IMG/VR virus record: IMGVR_UViG_3300037560_000207 | Span: 1-64,000 of that record | Direction: 5' to 3' (one strand) | From: a virus | Length of the DNA stretch: 64,000 bases | Shown: positions 5,583-54,663 of the stretch, piece by piece | Numbering within the stretch: the stretch's first letter is position 1 | Layout of the letters: the number at the start of each line of letters is the position of its first letter | Position numbers and translations under genes: made by a program | Notes under the pieces: model-generated | What the model was told of the DNA's origin: nothing | What the model saw: the letters and a program-made list of their open reading frames with translations, nothing else | The model's database searches: none

Positions 5583-6134
5583 TTAATTATCCGATAAAAC
5601 AGATACATAAGGAAGATTTCTATATAAATCGTTATAATCAAGGCCCATTCCAACTACAAATTCATCAGGAATATCAAACCCAACAAAATCAACAGTTTCT
5701 ATATTTTTAGCTTTTCCTGGTTTACGTAATAGTACGGCAGTTTTCATGCTTAGTGGACATTCCCATAATATATGATCTTCTATAAATCCCAATGTCTTTC
5801 CAGTATCTAATATATCATCAATCAATAATACATGTGCGCTATCATGTAAATTTCTTTTAGGCCATAATGTTATCTTTGGTTCTTGAGCAGTTATCGATTT
5901 ACCTTGGTATGTTGAAACTCTTATAAAATCAAGTTCTGTGCGAATAGATAATTGACGCACTAAGTCAGCCATGAAAAATATAGCACCGGTTAATACACCA
6001 ATAACTATTACTGGTTCTTCTGAATGTCTATACCAATCTTGTCTAGAATAATAAAAATCAATATCAGAAGCCATTTCGGTTATTCTGGCTTGAATACGAT
6101 CTTTATCAATAAGCACTTTCCGTAACATCCCCAT
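5583..6134 (-). CDS. hpt: hypoxanthine (guanine) phosphoribosyltransferase
   Basis: A 183-residue type I phosphoribosyltransferase converting hypoxanthine (and probably guanine) plus PRPP to the nucleotide. Seen: VIVIGVLTGAIFFMADL (42-58), ELDFIRVSTYQG with the mobile loop, the PRPP-binding motif VLLIDDILDTGKT (102-114), and the purine-specific end VDFVGFDIPDEFVVGMGLDY, typical of Hpt. Length matches the bacterial family (about 175-185). It salvages purines for phage DNA synthesis and lies in an operon with the tmRNA. Confidence 0.96.
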   Translation of the reverse strand: MGMLRKVLIDKDRIQARITEMASDIDFYYSRQDWYRHSEEPVIVIGVLTGAIFFMADLVRQLSIRTELDFIRVSTYQGKSITAQEPKITLWPKRNLHDSAHVLLIDDILDTGKTLGFIEDHILWECPLSMKTAVLLRKPGKAKNIETVDFVGFDIPDEFVVGMGLDYNDLYRNLPYVSVLSDN

Positions 6135-6390: not shown

Positions 6391-6736
6391 TGGAGACGCG
6401 GGGAATTGAACCCCGGTCCAGCGATAAAATTCAATAATACTTCTACGTGCATAGTTGATTATTTAAATCTCGGAGCCACAAACGCCAACCAACAGGCTTT
6501 TATTTTTCCACATCAGACTATTATTTCATATTGATCCGGTCGAATATCAAATCAACACTAGCCCACTGCCATCGTCAATCAGAATAGTAGGCGTCTTCCA
6601 ATTAACGGACTGCTTAAGCAGCCATTTTTAAACGAGCTTCGCCGTTTAAGATTATCGCCAGTTTTTTAACGAGGCCAACTGACAACCTCGGCACGCAACA
6701 TCACTTTCACTTACCCTGTCGATTCCTATCGTCCCC
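6391..6736 (-). ncRNA. ssrA: transfer-messenger RNA (tmRNA)
   Basis: 346 nt. The 5' end GGGGACG pairs with the 3' CGTCTCC plus discriminator A, keeping the G3-U70 wobble that specifies alanine. The 5' region has the family's ATAGGAATCGACAGGG signature and the 3' end has T-arm CCGGGGTTCAATTCCCCG. The internal frame ends GCT GCT TAA and reads AIILNGEARLKMAA, a plausible degradation tag with the expected -AA terminus; the exact resume codon is inferred. CCA is not encoded. It lies 4 bases after the upstream gene, so it is probably processed from the transcript made by the 7437 promoter. Confidence 0.93.
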
Positions 6737-22376: not shown

Positions 22377-24149
22377 TTATAGGATTAAAGTGTACCTGTA
22401 TTTATGACCTAATGGAATACGAATCCATCCCCGTTCTTGGGCTAATTCTCGTTCGGTTTTATCTATATTTTTGATTCTCCTACATGATGATTTATGCATT
22501 AATTTTAATGCTAATGGATCAAAATATGCATAACTTGGTTGTGTCTTTCCGGCTTTGTCCCATTTAGCCATTCTGTAAACACCACCATTGTGTCCAACGG
22601 ATGAATCAGCAAACGATATAAGTTTTTTAATTTGTGTATAGTTATCTCTTATATATTGACAGCATTGATTAAGAAAATCACAACTAAAGGGACGCACGAC
22701 ATAGAAAGGAATGCATAAACGTGTAAGCTCCCAAGTGTTTTTCTCTATATACTTATTTGTTCCAATTCCGAAAGTGGCTATTCCGATAATTATATTACCT
22801 CTTTTGGCCACTAAAATAAGTTTTGATCCAGGAAGAGTACCTAAATAATGCTCGTATCTTATGATTTGTCGTATTTCTTTGGTAGCTGAGGCTTGTATAT
22901 AATACTCGATAGGTTGCAATTGGCCATTATCATCAAATAATTGGAAATCATTATGTGTTAAATCACTGCGTTTAATAGCGAAATCTGGATATGCTTGCCA
23001 TATTTTCCACCAAGGATGTGCTTGTTCCAACTTCCCCTCTTCTATTTTGTCATGCTCTTCTTTTGAAATAACCAAACTATTATTCGCATCATAAAATCTT
23101 GGATCATTTATAATAGCTAAATTGCGATATTCATCTAATAATGGGGAATGTTTTGTAATTGATGACCGTAATATAACATGAAATGGATAAATATGATGAC
23201 AATTTAATTCTCTAATTTGTTGATCAGAAATTTCGCTTTTATATTGTTGTCTGGAAAAAGCATCTGTACGCCACTGTGAAGAAGCAGCGCAACTGCGTAC
23301 AGCATTGCGAATATCGGTTACACCACCTTTCCAGGAACCATTATTTTCACCGATATTTTTTCTTCGTTCTTTTCCAATTGCTATGAATCTTTTTAATACA
23401 AATTGAGAACTTTTATTAAAATAAGCAGAAATTTTCTCACACGACCAACCACATCCGTCATATAGGTGAATTAATTGTTCATCTGGTATTTCATCGCTAC
23501 CTCTCCACAATCTAGCCCCGCCAGACACTGTTCGTGTTCCACGACCAGATTTTTTAAGATGTTTTTTAACAAATCCATGGCTCTTTCCTAATTTTTTAGC
23601 AGTTTCAGCGATACTTAATTTTTGGTTCCAATATAAATCGATTATCTTCACATCATCAACGGATTTATCTGTTTGTTGTTCGCCAACAGAACGAATTTTA
23701 ATACCATTTTGCTTTAATCTACGACGGATAACAGAACTACTTACTCTAAATTGTTCTGCACATGCCGTAAGGCTCAATTGTTGCTCTAGATACAAAGTTA
23801 ATAATTTTATTCTATCGATTGGTATTGTTCTTGAAATTCCACCGACCCTGAGTAATTTGACTCCAGCTTCTTTGAGTTTCTTTTGGACCAAGGAAACAGA
23901 AATATTATATGTTTTGGCTATATTTTTGGTGGACATTTTGTTAGTCTCATAATCATATTTAATTCTATCTGAATCGATCGTACTAGGAGCTTGTCCTTGC
24001 GGTCTCAACGGGATTTTGGCTTCCTTGAATCTATTGATAATTGTTTGAAGATGGACTTTAAATATTTTTGCTATTTGCGACGTTGATAAGCCATCATCTT
24101 TATATAATATAGAAGCTTTCTCTAGGTCAAATTGTTTTCTATGAGCCAT
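22377..24149 (-). CDS. HTH-array + HNH + Mom-like GNAT fusion, 590 aa
   Basis: Residues 1-265 hold five helix-turn-helix repeats (LSTSQIAKIFKVHLQTII, MSTKNIAKTYNISVSLVQ, LSIAETAKKLGKSHGFVK and others). About 275-385 is an HNH-type segment (ELNCHHIYPFHVIL, NNSLVISKEEHDKIEE). The C-terminal about 200 residues (YEHYLGTLPGSKLILVAKRG, ELTRLCIP, SFADSSVGHNGGVYRMAKW) resemble the GNAT-like Mom fold of phage Mu, which modifies DNA adenines. It has its own promoter (24172) and lies outside the capsid operon terminators. It is probably a mobile endonuclease; what the Mom-like part does is unknown. Confidence 0.75.
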   Translation of the reverse strand: MAHRKQFDLEKASILYKDDGLSTSQIAKIFKVHLQTIINRFKEAKIPLRPQGQAPSTIDSDRIKYDYETNKMSTKNIAKTYNISVSLVQKKLKEAGVKLLRVGGISRTIPIDRIKLLTLYLEQQLSLTACAEQFRVSSSVIRRRLKQNGIKIRSVGEQQTDKSVDDVKIIDLYWNQKLSIAETAKKLGKSHGFVKKHLKKSGRGTRTVSGGARLWRGSDEIPDEQLIHLYDGCGWSCEKISAYFNKSSQFVLKRFIAIGKERRKNIGENNGSWKGGVTDIRNAVRSCAASSQWRTDAFSRQQYKSEISDQQIRELNCHHIYPFHVILRSSITKHSPLLDEYRNLAIINDPRFYDANNSLVISKEEHDKIEEGKLEQAHPWWKIWQAYPDFAIKRSDLTHNDFQLFDDNGQLQPIEYYIQASATKEIRQIIRYEHYLGTLPGSKLILVAKRGNIIIGIATFGIGTNKYIEKNTWELTRLCIPFYVVRPFSCDFLNQCCQYIRDNYTQIKKLISFADSSVGHNGGVYRMAKWDKAGKTQPSYAYFDPLALKLMHKSSCRRIKNIDKTERELAQERGWIRIPLGHKYRYTLIL

Positions 24150-34611: not shown

Positions 34612-35680
34612 AAGGTATACCCCTTTCCTCTGCACATAATCGTGCATCAATTTCCCAACAATGCCGTACCGCCGCTCTTTGTCCCTTGGTCTTAACATCT
34701 TCCTCATATTTATGCAATCTAGCTATTCGGAAAAGATCAGCCAATCTATTAAAATATGTATGATTTTGAGCTACATATTCTACGCTAGCCCTAATCTTAT
34801 CAAAACGCTGTGATTGATCCTCTACAAGCCCAATTACTTTATTTATAAAATTAGTTGTACTAATAGCTATTTCACAATGCTTCCCAAGATATTTAGAAAT
34901 CATAGGATTATCAGATACTTGAATGCCACCACACAACGGAATCATGAATGATCTTTCATTGACACATGCTTGAAGCTTTACCTGTTTTACTGTATGAACA
35001 TTAAGACATACTTTAGCTGTTGCATAAACATGAGCTAATTTAACAATATCTAGTGGACCATTATAATTAAGACCAGCTAACTGCCAAATGTTATCACCGA
35101 ATACTTGATAAGAATAACCAAGTAAATCTAACCTCTTAAACAATGGTTCAATCAAATGTTTCATAATATCTTGTCGGTGATTAAAATTAGCAACCATCGC
35201 AACATCAGTTAATACTGAACATGTTGACGGCAATGCTTTAACCATATTCCCCGCCACTGGTAAATGCACAAGATTACTATTCTGCCAACCACGCATATAT
35301 TCAAACCATAAATTAGGCTCCAAACGAGTATGTACAATAACTTCTTTAATTTCTTTTATTAAATCTGGTTCATCATCATGAGCAAATTCATATGGTCCAT
35401 CTATTGTAGCATTAGCCGGATTCAAAGGTAAAGCATCAATAATTACCACCACCTGATTATCATTTATAACTTTAATAGGTAGTTGTCTTATACCATATCT
35501 TGAAAAAGTCATAATTAATTGAACTCCATATTTTTCAATTAATTCACGACAACCTAATTTAGTCTTGGGATTTCCAACATATACTTTCCAACCAAGATAT
35601 CGCAAAGCATCAACATAACCATGTTGTATCATTTTTGATGTCATCCCAGGACGCGGAATATATAGAGCACATTTATTCAT
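34583..35680 (-). CDS. glycosyltransferase (CgeB/family-1-like), 365 aa
   Basis: GT-B style: N-terminal MNKCALYIPRPGMTSKMIQH, VYVGNPKTKLGC, and the C-terminal donor-site stretch LNVHTVKQVKLQACVNERSF then LCGGIQVSDNPMISKYLG, as in CgeB-like transferases. Several ATGs occur in a row; 35680 has GGGGAGA at best spacing. Next to gmd, so a 6-deoxyhexose donor is plausible; the acceptor is unknown. Confidence 0.75.
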   Translation of the reverse strand: MNKCALYIPRPGMTSKMIQHGYVDALRYLGWKVYVGNPKTKLGCRELIEKYGVQLIMTFSRYGIRQLPIKVINDNQVVVIIDALPLNPANATIDGPYEFAHDDEPDLIKEIKEVIVHTRLEPNLWFEYMRGWQNSNLVHLPVAGNMVKALPSTCSVLTDVAMVANFNHRQDIMKHLIEPLFKRLDLLGYSYQVFGDNIWQLAGLNYNGPLDIVKLAHVYATAKVCLNVHTVKQVKLQACVNERSFMIPLCGGIQVSDNPMISKYLGKHCEIAISTTNFINKVIGLVEDQSQRFDKIRASVEYVAQNHTYFNRLADLFRIARLHKYEEDVKTKGQRAAVRHCWEIDARLCAEERGIPYEQKVIGTS

Positions 35681-36587
35681 CATCATTCTCCCCGAAATCA
35701 GTATCTGCATCCATAATTATTGGTTCAACACTACCATCAGGAAACTCAATAGATTTACGAAATTCATTTGTAATATCTTCAGCAGCAATCTTTGTTAATT
35801 CAGCAAAACGCCCCTGCTTATCTCTTTCGTCTTGCGAATGTTGTAATTTGGTTACTAACTCCAAAAATGTCTGCTTGCCTCCACTAAGTTCTTCTAAACG
35901 ATCTTTACGAGTTGCGGCCAAACTACTATAAATTTTCTGTCGTTCTTTCACTAATGCATCATAACGATCATATGCTGCTTTAGTATATCTGTGTCTATCG
36001 TCTAATTGTCTCTGTTGTAAAATACGAAACTTAATAGTATCTTTGTTTTCTTCTTCTTTCTTAGGATTCTCGATAAACCATATCTGTAAATCAGCAATTT
36101 GTCTTTGTAATAAACGAGTTAAAATCAATTGTCTATCAATCAGAAGTCTATGTTTCAAAAAATCATCGATCTGCATAAATTCACTAATAACAATATCTTC
36201 AAATTGACAACATAGAAGACCAAAATCTTCTACATATACAGCCACTTCTTCTGATTCAAATTGTTTCTTAATAGTTATATATAAGTGTGTCTTTTTGAAT
36301 TGATCTCTAAACCAATGAGCTTTTTCACCATCAGAAAGTCCATGTGGTGGTAAGGTGAGCATTGGACCATCTAATACATCAATATTAATAGACTGACCAG
36401 GCTTCTTAATCACACCCATAGCACGACGGCGTCTACCAATAGTATCGAGAGTCCATTTGTATCCACATTCCTCTATCAACCGTTGCTGAATCTTTTTATC
36501 ACTTAGATCTTGTTTTATACAATCAACAAGAATTTTCAATGCTTTAGGATTAGAAGATAATCTCTGATTTTTAATTTCTGACACCAT
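35673..36587 (-). CDS. small-terminase-like DNA-binding protein, 304 aa
   Basis: N-terminal helix-turn-helix with DLSDKKIQQRLIEECGYKWT and TIGRRRRAMGVIKKPG, a long helical centre rich in Q/R (LTRLLQRQIADLQIWF...), and an acidic tail ending GENDDE. Size, HTH plus coiled centre, and place upstream of terL suit a TerS, but no signature proves it. The TIGRRRR element is shared with the 49077 protein. Confidence 0.5.
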   Translation of the reverse strand: MVSEIKNQRLSSNPKALKILVDCIKQDLSDKKIQQRLIEECGYKWTLDTIGRRRRAMGVIKKPGQSINIDVLDGPMLTLPPHGLSDGEKAHWFRDQFKKTHLYITIKKQFESEEVAVYVEDFGLLCCQFEDIVISEFMQIDDFLKHRLLIDRQLILTRLLQRQIADLQIWFIENPKKEEENKDTIKFRILQQRQLDDRHRYTKAAYDRYDALVKERQKIYSSLAATRKDRLEELSGGKQTFLELVTKLQHSQDERDKQGRFAELTKIAAEDITNEFRKSIEFPDGSVEPIIMDADTDFGENDDE

Positions 36588-37122
36588 CTTCTCTCTCACT
36601 TAAAATCTCGGTAACCTTTTGACGTATTTCTTCAACCAATGAACTACGAATTATATTATTTTCAATTAGTTCTTCAAATGGTTTAAGTAAATCGTCAGGT
36701 AGTCGTTCTTGAATATATATTAAAGTTTCATTACATAAAATATATTCAATTGGATCAACACTTATTTGTGTAGAGCACAAAAGTATGTCTTGTTCTGCAA
36801 TATTACAACTTTCAAGCGACAAAGCATTCACTAAATTCATTCGAACCCAAGCAAGACCAGAACTAGAAATATCCGAACCAGGGCGAAAATACTTATCTCT
36901 CTTAAGGTTTTTAAGACGATTTTTAACATGTCGAGCCAAATAATTCTCAATCGGGCCTATTGTTGAATCATATCGATTCAAAGCCTCCAAACACATACAC
37001 CATACTTCTTGATAAACATCACTATTTACATAATACGCAAAGGCACCATTATTACTACGAGATTTAGCTAATCGCTCAATAATAGGATATGCTTCATTAA
37101 GAAGTTTTTGACTGACTATCAT
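36571..37122 (-). CDS. sigma-factor-like protein, 183 aa
   Basis: The region VYQEVWCMCLEALNRYDSTI, then YLARHVKNRLKNLKRDKYF, matches sigma70 region 2 (core binding, -10 recognition), as in compact phage late sigma factors. A later helical part could be region 4. Start at the ATG at 37122. It could direct polymerase to the AACA-N17-TATAAT promoters seen in this arm; that link is inference. Confidence 0.65.
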   Translation of the reverse strand: MIVSQKLLNEAYPIIERLAKSRSNNGAFAYYVNSDVYQEVWCMCLEALNRYDSTIGPIENYLARHVKNRLKNLKRDKYFRPGSDISSSGLAWVRMNLVNALSLESCNIAEQDILLCSTQISVDPIEYILCNETLIYIQERLPDDLLKPFEELIENNIIRSSLVEEIRQKVTEILSEREDGVRN

Positions 37123-37285
37123 CCTCTGTTTCCTTTTCAACCAATTTTTTAATTGTCTTCTTTCCGATAGCTGGTTCTGGATCAGGAATAACTAAATCAT
37201 CAATAACCTTGGCATTAGCCCCTTTTGTTCCACGAGTAATCAAACGACAGTCTACCTTAGTTTTCTTGTAACTCATTTCCATCAC
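37097..37285 (-). CDS. small basic protein, 62 aa
   Basis: Begins MMEMSYKKTKVDCRLITRGT behind AAAGGTG; lysine-rich with an acidic end. First gene of the minus operon that carries the sigma-like and terminase genes; TATAAT of a possible promoter lies at 37291-37296. Function unknown. Confidence 0.55.
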   Translation of the reverse strand: MMEMSYKKTKVDCRLITRGTKGANAKVIDDLVIPDPEPAIGKKTIKKLVEKETEDDSQSKTS

Positions 37286-37379
37286 CTTTAATTATACACA
37301 ATTACGTCCGATAAAATCGTCCCCCATATATATAGAGAGCGCATTTTTGCAAAAGTGTTCCATTTTTCTTATTTTTCTT

Positions 37380-49076: not shown

Positions 49077-49718
49077 TTAGAATCCTACACCAGCCCTAAT
49101 AGTAGGCGGTCGTCTGTAATTGATGGCTTCGATAAAGACAAGACGCCATTCTCTATATAGGGAATACACTTCTCTGTAGTATCTCCCTCCGGTGATTGAT
49201 TGATGATACATAGCTTTACAATAGTCATATGCACGCAATTGAGATTTGTTAAGTTTAGAAATATTGGCCTTTGTTCTCTCAAGAACCGTATGCCAGTGGA
49301 TAACTTTATCTCTAGCGGTATCCCACCATTCCTGCGGGCTTGGTTCTCCTTTGGGATGATTTGCTAGACCCTCAAAAAATGACGCAGTGTATTCGCACAG
49401 ATCACCAAATAATAAATCATCTGGATTAACATTTCCGAAACAGTCTTCTAGGATCATTTGAGTTTTATTAGTTGCGGATAAACGTTTCTTTGAATTCTTA
49501 ATAGCTGTTACAGATTTGAGAGGTTTACAAAAGGAAGCGGGCATTTCCCTTAGAACCCCCAATCCTCGACGCCTTCTTCCTATGGTACTTGTGTCCCATA
49601 GATGGCCGAAACTATCATACAATTTTTGACTGATGTCTTTATCTGATAAACCATTCTTAGACATGTGTTCAAGAGCAAGCATCGCTCCTTTGTTGTTACT
49701 TAAATTCTTTTTGTTCAT
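49077..49718 (-). CDS. terminase-small-like/HTH protein paralogue, 213 aa
   Basis: N-terminal NGLSDKDISQKLYDSFGHLW and TIGRRRRGLGVLREMP repeat the DNA-binding region of the 35673 protein. The rest is helical (NISKLNKSQLRAYDYCKAMY). ATG at 49718 behind GGAGG. A second copy of the same recognition domain in a separate unit suggests either a regulator or the true TerS. Confidence 0.6.
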   Translation of the reverse strand: MNKKNLSNNKGAMLALEHMSKNGLSDKDISQKLYDSFGHLWDTSTIGRRRRGLGVLREMPASFCKPLKSVTAIKNSKKRLSATNKTQMILEDCFGNVNPDDLLFGDLCEYTASFFEGLANHPKGEPSPQEWWDTARDKVIHWHTVLERTKANISKLNKSQLRAYDYCKAMYHQSITGGRYYREVYSLYREWRLVFIEAINYRRPPTIRAGVGF

Positions 49719-49822
49719 AACCATTTCCTCCAAGCAAGCTAACCAAAGATTTATACGATCCATCGCTACCACGTAAGAGCAAGACGCAAAAGTTAGGTAC
49801 CATAACTGTGCGAAGCTCTGAG

Positions 49823-49875: not shown

Positions 49876-50207
49876 AGGCCCTCCGATTTTTTTTGGCTTT
49901 TTTGTGGGGTAATAACGCGATTGATTTAGGGGTTGAAAAAGGGGTGTACCCCAAAAGGTGGGTGTTAAGGAGAGAAAAAGTGTACATGAAAAGTTGTAGG
50001 TAATGTGAAAAATGAGCCGGGTATGCCTAACCCCCCGCACGGTTATTGGACCCAGATGAGTTATCGGACCGTTTATAAAACGGGCCGCGCCCCTGTTTTG
50101 TCCTATAAACAGATACCCACGCCTACAAAGTTATCGGACTATTCTTGCTCGACTAGCAAGGAAAGTTATCGGACATAAAAAAGATTTTATTTTACTATGT
50201 TATAGGC
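49876..50207. other. divergent intergenic region
   Basis: 332 bases without genes between the divergent arms. It holds a GGGGT/ACCCC-type hairpin near 49951 and the first TTATCGGAC copies at 50061, 50131 and 50166. A site for an origin or a regulatory switch is possible; nothing proves it. Confidence 0.5.
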
Positions 50208-50236
50208 TTGCATTCTCGGGGGCGGTATGCTACAAT
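50208..50236 (+). promoter_or_regulatory. sigma70-type promoter of the right arm
   Basis: TTGCAT (50208-50213), 17 bases, TACAAT (50231-50236). It precedes the small-gene operon starting at 50264 and differs from the AACA-type promoters of the left arm. Confidence 0.7.
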
Positions 50237-50263
50237 ACAGGTAGAAAGAGAGGCATGGAAACG

Positions 50264-50431
50264 ATGAATTACCAGACTCTAATCACAAATGCAATGGGTT
50301 GGCTAGCCGATGATCCTATCAGAATTGCATGGATTATCGGAATCGTTGTGGTGCTCGGAGCGGTAAACGGTATTTATCGGTCGCTCGGACATTGTAGGAA
50401 TATCGGACATAGTGGGCGACGTATCCTATAA
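50264..50431 (+). CDS. small membrane protein, 55 aa
   Basis: MNYQTLITNAMGWLADDPIR, then a transmembrane helix (IAWIIGIVVVLGAVNGIY) and a basic tail. Start at the second ATG, 10 bases after GAGG; an ATG at 50255 is possible. Contains motif copies within its coding sequence. Function unknown. Confidence 0.55.
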   Translation: MNYQTLITNAMGWLADDPIRIAWIIGIVVVLGAVNGIYRSLGHCRNIGHSGRRIL

Positions 50432-50525
50432 CGATAGGGGTAATAACGATGTTTTGGTATCGGATTATCTGGTGTGCGGTGGTAATCACAGTTATCGGTA
50501 TGTGGTAGGTTATCGGAGGGACAAA

Positions 50526-50612
50526 ATGACCATCATTATCGGATGTGTGGTTTTAGTGATTATAGGAGCCCTTGCGATATGGGGCGTGTTTAACGACATT
50601 ACCGGACTATAA
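50526..50612 (+). CDS. small membrane protein, 28 aa
   Basis: MTIIIGCVVLVIIGALAIWG plus a short tail, essentially one transmembrane helix, behind GGAGGGACAAA. I chose the internal start because of this site; a longer frame from 50412 lacks one. Function unknown. Confidence 0.6.
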   Translation: MTIIIGCVVLVIIGALAIWGVFNDITGL

Positions 50613-50626
50613 CAGGAGCGGTAACT

Positions 50627-50887
50627 ATGTTCGGAAACGCTACAATCGACATACCAGGAAACGGAGTTATCGGACCAACACACATGGAAGGATTATCGGA
50701 CCAACTTGCGTTGTGTATGGGACGTATCGCAGCGATGACGTTACCGGATGCCTTCATTACAGTTATACTTGAAGGCGGAATATTGGTAGTTATCGGATGT
50801 GATAAGTTCAACGGCGAGATTGTTATCAGACGTTGTAGTGGTTATCGGGAATATGCCAATAACATAGTAGGAGGGCCTATAATATAA
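50627..50887 (+). CDS. hypothetical protein, 86 aa
   Basis: MFGNATIDIPGNGVIGPTHM, then helical LALCMGRIAAMTLPDAFITV and beta ILEGGILVVIGCDKFNGEIV. AGGAGCGGTAACT precedes the ATG. Several TTATCGG motifs are embedded, encoding V-I-G and L-S-D in different frames. Confidence 0.6.
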   Translation: MFGNATIDIPGNGVIGPTHMEGLSDQLALCMGRIAAMTLPDAFITVILEGGILVVIGCDKFNGEIVIRRCSGYREYANNIVGGPII

Positions 50888-51234
50888 TGGGACCACTAGA
50901 AGTTATAGGACCGTATGCTGGTACTGTAATAACTACCAGAAAGACGGACGTTCCCGCGACCAATAACCCACCCAATGGTACTTCTATACTTATCGGACTA
51001 CTCATGCTCCCGTTGGGGTTATTAGCCCTTGTATTTATAGGACTATACGTGTGGGCATACCGATTTCCTTTGTGTCTTATTGGACTAATCGTTATCGGAC
51101 TATGGGCGTGTGCCCATTTTGGGTCCAATAAACCACTAATAAGGTGGCATAGAAAGAACAGATTATCAGACGAGCAACGTGCTAGAATCGAGCGCAGATT
51201 ATCAGACATCGAACGACAGCCGGGGCTGCAATAG
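50887..51234 (+). CDS. membrane protein, 115 aa
   Basis: Two hydrophobic segments (ILIGLLMLPLGLLALVFIGL and FPLCLIGLIVIGLWACAHFG) and a basic cytoplasmic tail RLSDEQRARIERRLSDIERQ. ATG overlaps the previous stop. Function unknown; location and size suit an early host-takeover or lysis-timing protein, without proof. Confidence 0.62.
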   Translation: MGPLEVIGPYAGTVITTRKTDVPATNNPPNGTSILIGLLMLPLGLLALVFIGLYVWAYRFPLCLIGLIVIGLWACAHFGSNKPLIRWHRKNRLSDEQRARIERRLSDIERQPGLQ

Positions 51235-51290
51235 TCTGATAATAGTAAAGGCTAGTTTAGTGTGTCGAAGTCATACATAGGGGAATTACG

Positions 51291-51647
51291 ATGAGAAACG
51301 TAGTTATAGGACAGACCGGACGGATTCCATTATCAGACGATGCGATCATGCGTAAACTGTCGCATAGACGAACGGTCCGATATCAGTACGCAAAGGCAAA
51401 GCACGGGTGGATAGCATGGGTTTGCGGACCTTTTCATTCCCGGACCTACGGAGCGTGCGCGTTTGGGACCGATAAAAGAAGGAGTAGAGTCTCGCTTCAA
51501 AGGCGGTTGGCTAATAATTATCGGTATCTAGGTCTTATGCTACACTCGGACGTGGACGATGCAGATAACGTGGGCAACGTGGACGATAGGTTATTGGACG
51601 TGGGCGTGGTCAATAGGGCGATAACTGAAGGCGTTTGTCGCCTGTAG
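51291..51647 (+). CDS. basic hypothetical protein, 118 aa
   Basis: MRNVVIGQTGRIPLSDDAIM, HRRTVRYQYAKAKHGWIAWV, then an arginine-rich and finally Asp-rich section. RBS AGGGGAATTACG. No family recognised. Confidence 0.55.
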   Translation: MRNVVIGQTGRIPLSDDAIMRKLSHRRTVRYQYAKAKHGWIAWVCGPFHSRTYGACAFGTDKRRSRVSLQRRLANNYRYLGLMLHSDVDDADNVGNVDDRLLDVGVVNRAITEGVCRL

Positions 51648-51676
51648 ATTATTGGACACAAAACAGGAGAAAACTT

Positions 51677-51856
51677 ATGGGACTAACGGTGAAAGAATTA
51701 AGAACCGCTTTAAGGGAGTTAGCAGACGATTGCCAAGTTATATTATCGGTCGAGGATGATAATCCACCAGTACCGATAATCCACGAGACGGAGGCAATCG
51801 GCGCAATTGTCGGTCCTGGGGTAATCAAGATTCTCGGAACAATGCACTACCGCTAA
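51677..51856 (+). CDS. small protein, 59 aa
   Basis: MGLTVKELRTALRELADDCQ, then VILSVEDDNPPVPIIHETEA. The TVKELxxxLxxLxxD-x-V opening is common in small phage proteins and recurs at 57296. RBS AGGAGAAAACTT. Ends just before the terminator at 51869. Confidence 0.68.
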   Translation: MGLTVKELRTALRELADDCQVILSVEDDNPPVPIIHETEAIGAIVGPGVIKILGTMHYR

Positions 51857-51868
51857 TATCTAGGAATC

Positions 51869-51892
51869 GGCCCGATTTTATCGGGCCTTTTC
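51869..51892 (+). terminator. Rho-independent terminator
   Basis: GGCCCGA, loop, TCGGGCC, then T5. It closes the first right-arm operon. The loop plus stem reads TTTTATCGGG, so it incorporates the regional motif. Confidence 0.92.
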
Positions 51893-52082
51893 CATGCGCA
51901 TCTCGTAACATTATCGGACCATCACTTTTGCGTCTTGCTTTCATTATCGGACAGGACTGCATTATAGGTCTTGTCTGGAAACTAACTTACCCTGTCTGTA
52001 ATATTGTGGATGTTATTCGACAGTAGTGATAATATCGTTATTTTTATAGGAACAAAAAATGGTTATCGGAGTATAATAAGTT

Positions 52083-52616
52083 ATGGGAACTACCTACGCA
52101 CTACCAGTTATTGGACGAAACTACGAGTTATCGGCTATCGTGGACGTGGAGGATTATCGGACACTTAAGTTATGGGAATATAGGTGGTATAGAGTTATCG
52201 GAACCAGCGGTATCACTTATGCTCAGACCAATATAAACGGTAAAATGATTACCCTCCATCGCTTAATTATGGGAACTACGGATCGGCCAAGGTCCGTATG
52301 TGTAGATCATATTGATAGAAACGGACTTAATTGTTCTCGGACTAATATGCGTATAACCGATAATACAGGCAATCAAAGAAACGCTCGTAAACATTTATCG
52401 GCCAATCCCACAAGTTCCTATAAAGGTGTCCGACATATGGGTCCAAAATATCGGACCAAACCTTGGCGCGCAGAAATTACATTATCGGATAGCCAACCAC
52501 AACACATTGGAACTTATCGGACTCAAGAAGACGCAGCAAAGGCTTATAATAAAGCGGCCATAAAATTATTTGGACCTATGGCACGATTGAATGTTATTAG
52601 ACCCAAATCCACCTAA
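52083..52616 (+). CDS. HNH/AP2 homing endonuclease, 177 aa
   Basis: HNH_3-type core: ITLHRLIMGTTDRPRSVCVD-HIDRNGLNCSRTNMR, then NQRNARKH; C-terminal AP2 DNA-binding domain SSYKGVRHMGPKYRTKPWRA, HIGTYRTQEDAAKAYNKAAI. At least eight copies or near-copies of the TTATCGG motif lie inside the gene, so it has been resident long enough to acquire, or was selected for, the regional signal. Confidence 0.92.
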   Translation: MGTTYALPVIGRNYELSAIVDVEDYRTLKLWEYRWYRVIGTSGITYAQTNINGKMITLHRLIMGTTDRPRSVCVDHIDRNGLNCSRTNMRITDNTGNQRNARKHLSANPTSSYKGVRHMGPKYRTKPWRAEITLSDSQPQHIGTYRTQEDAAKAYNKAAIKLFGPMARLNVIRPKST

Positions 52617-52809
52617 AAAACATATCGGACTGTGTTTTTGTCCAGTAATATCGTTATTCTTACCTAAAAAATACGGTTATTTTCAACCTAGCATAATATA
52701 TCCTATCGGACTTTAGTAAACGGACGTAATTATTATCGGCTAGGACGTTATTTGCCGATAAAAACACGATTGGCGCGCCAAAAACACCTAAAAAAAACCT
52801 ATATAATGT

Positions 52810-52838
52810 TTGACCTATTGTATAACTACCCCTATAGT
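52810..52838 (+). promoter_or_regulatory. sigma70 promoter before the structured-RNA tract
   Basis: TTGACC (52810-52815), 17 bases, TATAGT (52833-52838). Predicted RNA start about 52845, at the beginning of the hairpin-rich region. Confidence 0.78.
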
Positions 52839-52844
52839 ATAGTG

Positions 52845-53160
52845 TAGGATAAGAAACCATAGGGTTATAAGACAGTGTGATAACGGGGAAGCGCCCTACC
52901 GGAAGCGGAGTCTCAAATCCGATAGTCTTGGGAACGTCCCACCGAGATTGTGGGTGAGCGTCCGACAGAGTGTTTGCTCGGGGCGCGAGCCCCGGTATAG
53001 GACGTTTCTCCGTTATCATTCCGACGTGACTATCATAGTCACCGATAATAAGTGATCTACGCAATGTAGGTCCGAATAATGATTCCGAGATTCACTACTT
53101 GCTCGTCCTATAATCGGGACGGAGTAGTCTCGGTATGGGACGGGCAATAACTCTTCTTGC
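52845..53160 (+). ncRNA. structured RNA / leader candidate I
   Basis: An outer pairing GATAACGG (52879) with CCGTTATC (53011) encloses CCCAC/GTGGG and a GGGGC-GCGA-GCCCC hairpin with a GNRA tetraloop. Next come GTGACTA/TAGTCAC and CGTCC/GGACG hairpins. It runs to the ribosome site of the 53173 gene, so it may be a 5' regulatory leader, or the first domain of a large ornate RNA. No match to a known riboswitch core was recognised. Confidence 0.6.
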
Positions 53161-53172
53161 AAGGAGAATTGT

Positions 53173-53520
53173 ATGCCGTCTAGTTCCACAATTGCCGAGT
53201 CTACCACAGCTAGTGGTACGGAATTCGGGTCCGCTGAATTCATCGAGAATGCTGTCTCTTATGCGGAACACAGGGCGCTCGTCAACGCCGCGTCCAAGTA
53301 CGATAACTTGGATGATGCACAAGCCGCGCTTTCTACCGTTTGGGCAGCGCTCGTTGAGCAATCCCAACAGGGTGGAGGGTTTACGCCGTCTGTCGAGTTG
53401 GGGTTCGGGTCTGATAATGCCTCGCAGATCGCGTTTGCACTTATCGGACAACGGAGTCGAGTCACCGATACCCGTAAGGCTATGGTAGCCGTCGGTAAGG
53501 CGAATACGCCGAGCACGTAG
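53173..53520 (+). CDS. hypothetical protein, 115 aa
   Basis: MPSSSTIAESTTASGTEFGS, helical middle (NAVSYAEHRALVNAASKYDN, AQAALSTVWAALVEQSQQGG) and a basic end, behind a strong AAGGAGAATTGT site. Alanine/serine-rich, no known domain. It is the only convincing gene in the RNA tract and is flanked on both sides by structured RNA. Confidence 0.65.
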   Translation: MPSSSTIAESTTASGTEFGSAEFIENAVSYAEHRALVNAASKYDNLDDAQAALSTVWAALVEQSQQGGGFTPSVELGFGSDNASQIAFALIGQRSRVTDTRKAMVAVGKANTPST

Positions 53521-54086
53521 TATCTATCGCACCGCGTCTCTAACGTCCAGTAACTCCGGTGGATGATGCCGTTAGGGACGTGGACCGATGGGTATTCTAA
53601 ATCGCTTAGTGGGTGGCACCCATATTGACGGTCAATGATCGTCTAACATAGGCACGCTGTTTGTGTCAGCGATTCCCATAACCCTTTATCACAGCGGGGA
53701 GTCCGATAAGCATCGGGTATACCCGGACGGGGTTGGTCTAGTCCGATAGTCCGCCGTAGTAGGGTCTGTCGAACGTGCAGGATGTGCGCTTCGGGTCTGA
53801 ACCGGAGAATTACGGTTATCGGTCGAAGCCAATCTTAGAAGCGACAAAACGTAGGATTCGAGAATACGAATCCAGTCTACGCCGATAATATGGGCGAGAT
53901 AAGTAACGGTCTTGTCTGCGCAATTCCCTATATGGCGCGCACGGTTCTGGTTCAGCGCCAGATAGCGCTCTGTCTAGGTATAATTGTGTTGACTATCGAA
54001 CAAGACGTTATGGGAATACGTCCGTGGTTCGGTGTAGGCAAGTTAAATCGTCGTGGGATAGGCATATCCTAATGACGGGTTTTTTT
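53521..54086 (+). ncRNA. structured RNA candidate II (about 0.57 kb)
   Basis: No supported frame. Opens with a 14-pair stem (53532-53545 with 53570-53583, one G-U region), then TGGGT/ACCCA, ATTGA/TCAAT and GGATTCG/CGAATCC (53854-53873, extended by GTAG/CTAC). Ends in a T7 terminator. Size, density of stems and position near tRNAs are reminiscent of large ornate phage RNAs (GOLLD, ROOL), but no specific match is claimed. Confidence 0.55.
54049..54086 (+). terminator. terminator of RNA candidate II
   Basis: CGTC...GGGATA-GGCA-TATCCT...GACG followed by seven T. An alternative stem, GACGGG with CCTGTC across the T run, is possible. Confidence 0.75.
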
Positions 54087-54129
54087 GTCCCTGTCGATAA
54101 ACTTTTCTATGCAGATGGTCTAGTTTATT

Positions 54130-54663
54130 ATAGCTGACAATACGCTGGGTCGGATAATAGAAAACGGCGCGGAATACACCTGTCGGGATTGGCATTGAAA
54201 CAGTAAAACGCAAACGGGTAGAATGCGTGTAGCTGTTTCCTTGTAGCCGAACGACACGACGCGGCGGCAGTAGTAAAGCTGGAGTAAACCGACTGTCCGG
54301 TCCAGTGGCGCGCTAGCCCGTCGTTATAAAGTACACAAGAAACAGTCCTATCTGTGATAAGGGTTCGTTTATTCGGATTCCGGTACACTAACTGACAGTA
54401 AAGTAACGGTAGGGCTTTGTACATAAAAAGCAGAGGTAGGGCCTACGGGCCGGGAAGTTAAATCGTATTCTCCATAGAAGAGTCGATAAAGAACATTGTT
54501 CGAGCCGTGTCGATCTTTAATAATTGGAGAATAGATTTAACGGCAAACTTGGTGGGTTAGTTTGTCAACTTTTGGAGTGTTCCCGAGAAGTTTGGATCAC
54601 CATTCGTCAGAGGAACGGGGAGCCTGCCGTACCAGTTTTGGTGGAAATTCTGGTACACTTTTT
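54130..54663 (+). ncRNA. structured RNA candidate III (about 0.53 kb)
   Basis: No supported frame. GAAACAG/CTGTTTC (54197/54233) encloses ACGCA/TGCGT. GGCC-TACG-GGCC at 54440-54451 is a UNCG tetraloop hairpin. A 17-pair stem with one bulge (54457-54474 with 54525-54541) encloses an 8-pair stem and a GAAC/GTTC tip. It ends in a terminator. This nesting is far beyond a random spacer. Identity unknown; GOLLD/ROOL-type ornate RNA is the leading guess. Confidence 0.65.
54627..54663 (+). terminator. terminator of RNA candidate III
   Basis: GTACCAG, 14-base loop, CTGGTAC, then AC and T5. Confidence 0.8.

Follow-up and report, generated by a model that had tools for sequence, protein, structure and literature searches.

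The window analyzed here is the first 64 kb (positions 1 to 64,000) of IMG/VR record IMGVR_UViG_3300037560_000207, a 181,360-bp record of an uncultured phage (G000). It contains a dense array of short sites, each an exact or near copy of a 9-bp motif, TTATCGGAC, that runs through genes and the spacers between them. The array region has a G+C content of 0.41-0.52, and the DNA to its left about 0.35. It holds small conserved open reading frames (ORFs), an HNH endonuclease gene, and a sigma-70-type promoter. The features of the array and its borders are as follows, with family A designating the window and its relatives, which are listed below.

49077-49772, minus strand: gene containing a helix-turn-helix (HTH), divergent from the array and found at the same place in 3 of 12 family A arrays
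50041-53850, plus strand: motif array, with 12 exact copies of TTATCGGAC and about 30 one-mismatch copies
50627-50887, plus strand: small conserved ORF in which motif copies occupy at least two frames
50887-51234, plus strand: small conserved ORF (MGP...ITTRKTD) within the array
51291-51647, plus strand: conserved ORF (VIGQTG...GPFHS) within the array, the probe for motif-blind sampling
51866-51892, plus strand: terminator-like hairpin, as read from the sequence, with TTATCGGGCC on its 3' arm
52083-52616, plus strand: HNH endonuclease gene with motif copies, inconstant across family A arrays
52810-52838, plus strand: sigma-70-like promoter, TTGACC-17-TATAGT, close to the array end
53173-53520, plus strand: conserved ORF at the distal array end with one exact motif copy inside
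53701-53709, minus strand: lone minus-strand exact copy, in a hairpin of a downstream structured RNA

Exact copies of TTATCGGAC start on the plus strand at 50061, 50131, 50166, 50667, 50693, 50990, 51092, 51911, 51944, 52154, 52514, and 53441. A first-pass annotation of the window had reported twelve such copies, and the recount also gave 12, between 50,061 and 53,449. From 50.0 to 54.6 kb there are 12 forward copies and 1 reverse copy versus 0.04 expected from the region's own dinucleotides, a value that replaces the earlier estimate of about 0.01. The same interval has 29 forward and 7 reverse TTATCGG cores (more than 25 had been claimed), versus 1 and 10 in the remaining window. When one mismatch was allowed, the 3.8 kb held 42 forward and 10 reverse sites versus 0.43 expected per strand. 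Thus, the single orientation ascribed to the array is real as a bias but not absolute. The only minus-strand exact copies in the entire window are at 37306 and 53701. The full 181,360-bp record has 13 forward and 2 reverse copies, compared with 3 and 1 for the motif read backwards as a control. With a record total this low, the array is a single cluster; no second cluster was found in the full record, and the motif is not equally frequent elsewhere in the genome, a check that the first-pass annotation had proposed. BLASTN searches of phages with the array and of plasmids with the 44-48.9 kb segment gave no match.

The motif recurs in unrelated phages. A scan of IMG/VR for three motif copies separated by 2-32-bp gaps recovered 63 stretches, and the same scan with the reversed word recovered 10 loci, every one of them Gly-X-Y coding repeats. 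Whole records mostly have one cluster apiece. The carriers, with G+C contents of 33-65%, fall by gene content into unrelated lineages, families A to D and a further small group (G012, G029). Family A comprises the window, G001-G006, G018, G020-G022, G027, G037, G042, and G049; its terminase matches those of the Bacillus phages Slash and Stahl at about 26% and those of SPbeta-type phages more weakly. Family B has a DNA polymerase A that is 46-49% to YuA-type phages, family C a T7-type terminase that is 35% to LUZ100 and others, and family D a T4-type gp43 that is 47% to S-ShM2. Family B arrays are compact (about 0.4 kb), with constant site positions and orientations and different flanks. When relatives were sampled without regard to the motif, via the array gene at 51291-51647, 10 of 10 carried it, 9 in dense arrays and 1 (L388) in a degenerate one. 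Among records sampled by portal, the large records G027, G042, and G049 have clusters, and G037 and G055 end inside theirs. Portal-sampled G050 has neither a cluster nor the array gene, and distant relatives also lack a cluster. Six named relatives have no motif excess, and arrays are absent from the nearest cultured relatives. The idea that relatives without exact copies use a different motif was rejected because variants of the same motif are found at their late promoter. Literature searches on the motif string and on repeats returned no relevant description; the literature searched does not mention an asymmetric motif that recurs, with a single helical geometry, in four or more unrelated lineages.

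Site statistics were pooled over 15 arrays (52.8 kb), in which exact TTATCGGAC is present in 281 copies versus 1.4 expected. The pooled tolerance is approximately TTHYNRGNN. T2 and G7 are nearly strict, A3 can be replaced by C or T but not G, T4 by C, and G6 by A; position 5 accepts any base, and positions 8 and 9 are loose. This is broader than the variation, mainly at positions 5 and 6, first described for near-copies. A variant without GGA, TTATCAGAC, is enriched 60-fold, and the same tolerated variants recur across the lineages carrying clusters. Family A sites within ORFs occupy the three sense frames in 61, 58, and 40 cases (159 sense), with 52 antisense, whereas those of families B and C are in both orientations. 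The presence of antisense sites and the use of all three sense frames indicate that selection is not on the peptide. This bears out the earlier proposals that the motif is read in every frame and that selection acts on nucleic acid rather than protein.

A recent tandem amplification or a protein-coding repeat would explain nothing beyond the repetition itself and is hardly credible. The spacers between copies are unrelated, and the flanks, whose alignability had been put forward as the check for tandem amplification, could not be aligned in pairs; tandem amplification was therefore rejected. Furthermore, the motif is kept at homologous places even though the array proteins are only about 40-60% identical, and the reversed-motif scan, in which all hits were Gly-X-Y coding, returned 10 loci versus 63.

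Motif copies are also positioned at promoters. One isolated copy in the window is at the promoter of the late operon, which includes a sigma-like gene, an HTH-like gene, terminase, and portal.

37306-37314, minus strand: lone motif copy at the promoter of the late operon, shortly before GTGTATAAT, with place and orientation conserved in family A
36571-37140, minus strand: conserved late-operon gene resembling sigma-70 region 2 (the PHROG sigma match is weak, E 0.011), located downstream of the lone motif copy and present in every family A genome examined
35673-36599, minus strand: conserved gene with an N-terminal HTH-like segment (family match only at E 0.09), adjoining the terminase cluster; as a guess, its product is the terminase small subunit

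Each of the 14 close family A members examined has the late-promoter copy, in the form of TTATCGGAC or of a tolerated variant (for example, TTATGGGAC, TTATAGGAC, ATATCGGAC, or TTATCGTAC). It is missing from the distant G062 (portal 34%). The distance from the motif to the -10-like GTGTATAAT box varies from about 4 to 23 bp, and thus the motif is not a fixed -35 element. Of 27 promoter-like sites within arrays, 7 have the motif directly next to the -35 hexamer (for example, TTATCGGGC-TTGACT), versus a background of 2.9% (p=8e-6).

The spacing of the sites follows the DNA helix. Adjacent same-strand sites favor separations of about 15, 25, and 35 bp (about 4.5+10.5n bp), and phasing at 10-10.75 bp was detected in family A (p=0.0005), family B (p=0.002), and family C (p=0.002). 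Divergent pairs favor about 21, 31, and 41 bp (pooled p=0.005). The phase is 4.8 bp in family A, 4.3 bp in family B, and 4.5 bp in family C. That three unrelated lineages agree in phase is the strongest indication of a single protein geometry on double-stranded DNA.

The helical phasing of about 10.5 bp bears directly on the proposal, also made at first pass, of an RNA-protein array with a repeated GGA, in which UUAUCGGAC repeated in transcripts would be bound by a CsrA-type protein or paired with an antisense RNA. The sense orientation in family A, the GGA in the core, and the structured RNA with GUCCGAUAA downstream of the array are all in keeping with this proposal. However, neither the phasing nor the presence of both orientations in families B and C is expected of it, the late-promoter copy is upstream of a -10-like box, and the 60-fold enrichment of TTATCAGAC indicates that GGA is not obligatory. 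The GUCCGAUAA of the structured RNA is inside a hairpin, and for that reason this RNA was rejected as an antisense guide. An RNA-level array is thus quite improbable. Chi-like polar recombination sites, another early suggestion, would be compatible with the orientation bias in family A and with the location of clusters near contig ends, but we consider them very improbable. None of 48 sampled bacterial genomes, which may not include the host, is globally enriched in the motif, the arrays of families B and C are bidirectional, and a degenerate 9-mer with a fixed place in a promoter does not resemble Chi.

Clusters are closer to contig ends than expected (46 clusters, with positions compiled by hand; Kolmogorov-Smirnov p=9e-9), also when only contigs of at least 100 kb are considered (p=4e-6). 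Genome termini could account for this bias, as could a variable region in which assemblies break. A replication origin, a centromere-like partition site, or a terminal or packaging site on which a protein nucleates would be consistent with this location, with the presence of one cluster per genome, and with the fixed architecture of the compact family B arrays. The DnaA box is TTWTNCACA, and the TTATN of the motif matches its 5' half. Because the clusters are near contig ends, the packaging or terminal version retains some probability. Nevertheless, such a site is unlikely overall. The late-promoter copy and the copies abutting -35 boxes require a role in transcription, and the DnaA C-terminal domain (PF08299) was found in 0 of 32 phages at E<=1, with positive controls, which led us to reject a phage DnaA as the binder. 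Contigs of different family A genomes break at different points with respect to the array, a pattern that assembly breaks in a variable region would also produce.

The interpretation that we favor, with a probability of about 0.5, is that the array consists of sites on double-stranded DNA to which one protein binds cooperatively to control transcription, similar to stoperators or silencers. The first-pass annotation had included protein-binding and stoperator-like sites among its possibilities, and these fit best, given the sites in promoters and the helical phasing. Each site would be an asymmetric, double-stranded element of roughly one helical turn recognized by a single sequence-specific protein, which would bind cooperatively along the helix. 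The protein would act at promoters, through the site abutting the -35 box and the site inside the late promoter, and also along the early transcription unit. Occupancy may block or time early and late transcription, and the protein would be encoded by the host, or by the phage in a form that was missed.

Several points weigh against this interpretation. The sites of families B and C are in both orientations, unlike classical stoperators, and a lysogeny repressor is not expected in T4-like and T7-like carriers. When only exact copies are counted, family A shows no significant phasing (n=83, p=0.32), and the single period that fits this family best is 11.5 bp. Arrays within one family share descent and are therefore not independent. 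Furthermore, profile comparisons among the carriers did not find the binding protein. Hidden Markov models (HMMs) of 129 family A protein families recovered no DNA-binding family that the other lineages also have, and HHalign comparison of families A and C (867 of 1920 pairs run, with A-B pairs outside the comparison) yielded DUF4406 only. The families shared according to the HMMs and the A/C HHalign comparison are only AAA ATPases, HNH, DUF4406, methyltransferase, and metabolic genes. No candidate immunity repressor is common to the carriers, and no constant neighbor gene is found beside the array. The divergent HTH gene (49077-49772), at only 3 of 12 arrays, was rejected as the binder. A tyrosine recombinase was rejected as the common factor because it is absent from the other lineages searched. 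Ten large family A records, G000 (record positions 111620-112537, plus strand) and nine others, encode this enzyme, which is XerC-like, has catalytic residues that appear intact, and may act in integration or dimer resolution.

Because the comparisons found no DNA-binding family in common, a host-encoded binding protein is favored over a phage-encoded one, although a divergent phage protein may have been missed. One possibility with a host protein is that the array is a decoy, in which many operator copies titrate a conserved host factor, such as a defense or silencing protein, upon entry. The same motif in unrelated phages with no common DNA-binding gene found, and the many copies in a compact region that is often near contig ends, would suit a decoy. 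This explanation leaves the single conserved late-promoter copy, the -35 positions, and the one-way orientation in family A unaccounted for, and no host with matching chromosomal sites was found among the genomes sampled. We consider it clearly unlikely.

A broader proposal, which we hold only tentatively, is that unrelated tailed phages (large SPbeta/Slash-like, YuA-like, T7-like, and T4-like) came independently to carry phased arrays of a single 9-bp word for one host protein, which they either employ as a regulator or sequester by decoy. If there is such a common DNA code, bacteria would have a conserved DNA-binding protein that takes part in infection and is still to be discovered. The arrays point to an unrecognized factor that is used, or has to be dealt with, by many phages of uncultured bacteria, and the motif provides a sequence handle toward that factor and, via the factor, toward the hosts. 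Repeated regulator sites within a phage are already known; what the literature searched does not report is one motif and geometry across lineages in which no common DNA-binding gene was found.

Transposon ends were rejected because the bacterial three-copy matches are Bacillaceae intergenic repeats, AlbA_2/COG2865-type coding repeats, and short tandem repeats rather than insertion sequence ends. The Bacillaceae chromosomes (L196, L209, L227, L254, L256, L287, and L292) have intergenic TTATCGGACA arrays with exact 21-bp spacing and spurious YRT/LSD-type ORFs. Like the phage arrays, they repeat the same 9-mer in one orientation, with dissimilar spacers in several loci, but they differ in their rigid spacing of 21 bp (or a multiple), their intergenic location, and their helical phase. 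In several phyla (L216, L232, L224, L238, and L288), genes that look like AlbA_2/COG2865, as named from sequence, have (MSDK)n-type coding repeats; the motif is present in their DNA as its reverse complement, probably a coincidence of coding tandem repeats. Other tandem look-alikes are separate loci (L276, L286, and L219). A match in a Heimdallarchaeota metagenome-assembled genome (L234, ~5857-5956, CP070695.1) was rejected as evidence for the host, because a family A phage array is joined there across a run of N in a probable misassembly; the archaeal "chromosome" apparently holds a misjoined phage contig.

Between the array and the transfer RNA genes is a conserved non-coding stretch (53518-54500, plus strand), with homologs in G001-G003, G006, G020, G022, L383, L387, and L388. 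A consensus fold of about 415 nt from eight phages, with 18 predicted helices, keeps 94% of pair cells versus 87.5% for shuffled and 31-44% for slid alignments. Two-sided compensatory changes are found in 38 of 101 pairs versus 14.6 (shuffled) and 4-9 (slid), a number reached by 0 of 500 shuffles. The stretch is thus predicted to be a new large structured RNA with strong covariation. At E<=1, Rfam has no match for the stretch itself. Its position recalls large phage RNAs such as GOLLD and ROOL, a likeness of position alone. Elsewhere, the window encodes a transfer-messenger RNA (6391-6736, minus strand; tag peptide GEARLKMAA) and a 590-amino-acid protein in which an HNH/HTH part is fused to a Mom-like DNA modification part (22377-24149, minus strand).

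The array can be compared with several known systems. It resembles DnaA boxes in being built of 9-mers with a TTATN 5' half and a free fifth position, but its 3' half is GGAC rather than CACA, it is associated with promoters, and no phage DnaA C-terminal domain accompanies it. The strict GGA of CsrA/RsmE RNA sponges is not found here, as the enrichment of TTATCAGAC demonstrates. The parC and tubC centromeres have few, regularly spaced copies at one noncoding site beside the gene for their own binding protein. The compact arrays of short direct repeats are similar to these centromeres, where binding is cooperative, but up to about 60 sites extend through genes here, and no gene is a constant neighbor.

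The SPbeta repeated element SPBRE is a 15-bp sequence present in about ten promoter regions and bound by MrpR (PMC10516654). It is likewise a repeated element of a large phage with a DNA-binding regulator, and the family A terminase is weakly SPbeta-like; however, SPBRE does not form a dense array, and TTATCGGAC is not overrepresented in Goe14, an SPbeta-like phage. MrpR is a catalytically dead repressor with a tyrosine recombinase fold, whereas the family A enzyme looks intact in its sequence and none is found in the other lineages.

The stoperators of cluster A mycobacteriophages are bound by an L5-type repressor (PMC6550527, PMC9283540), and regulation by operators together with stoperators that are oriented with transcription is well established (PMC6550527). 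L5-type stoperators and the array described here are alike in having short, asymmetric, multicopy sites, mostly in one orientation relative to transcription, some of them operators inside promoters. Family A, but not families B and C, has one main orientation, and operator-like sites are present in promoters as the late-promoter copy and the copies abutting -35 boxes. L5-type sites are spread over the genome, whereas here each genome has one cluster, whose sites enter coding regions in every frame, and in addition one or a few isolated copies such as that at the late promoter. Because this distribution is not genome-wide and no repressor is known, we do not class the array as a stoperator system. 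L5-type motifs differ between subclusters, along with the repressor (PMC6550527), whereas here one motif is common to unrelated phages.

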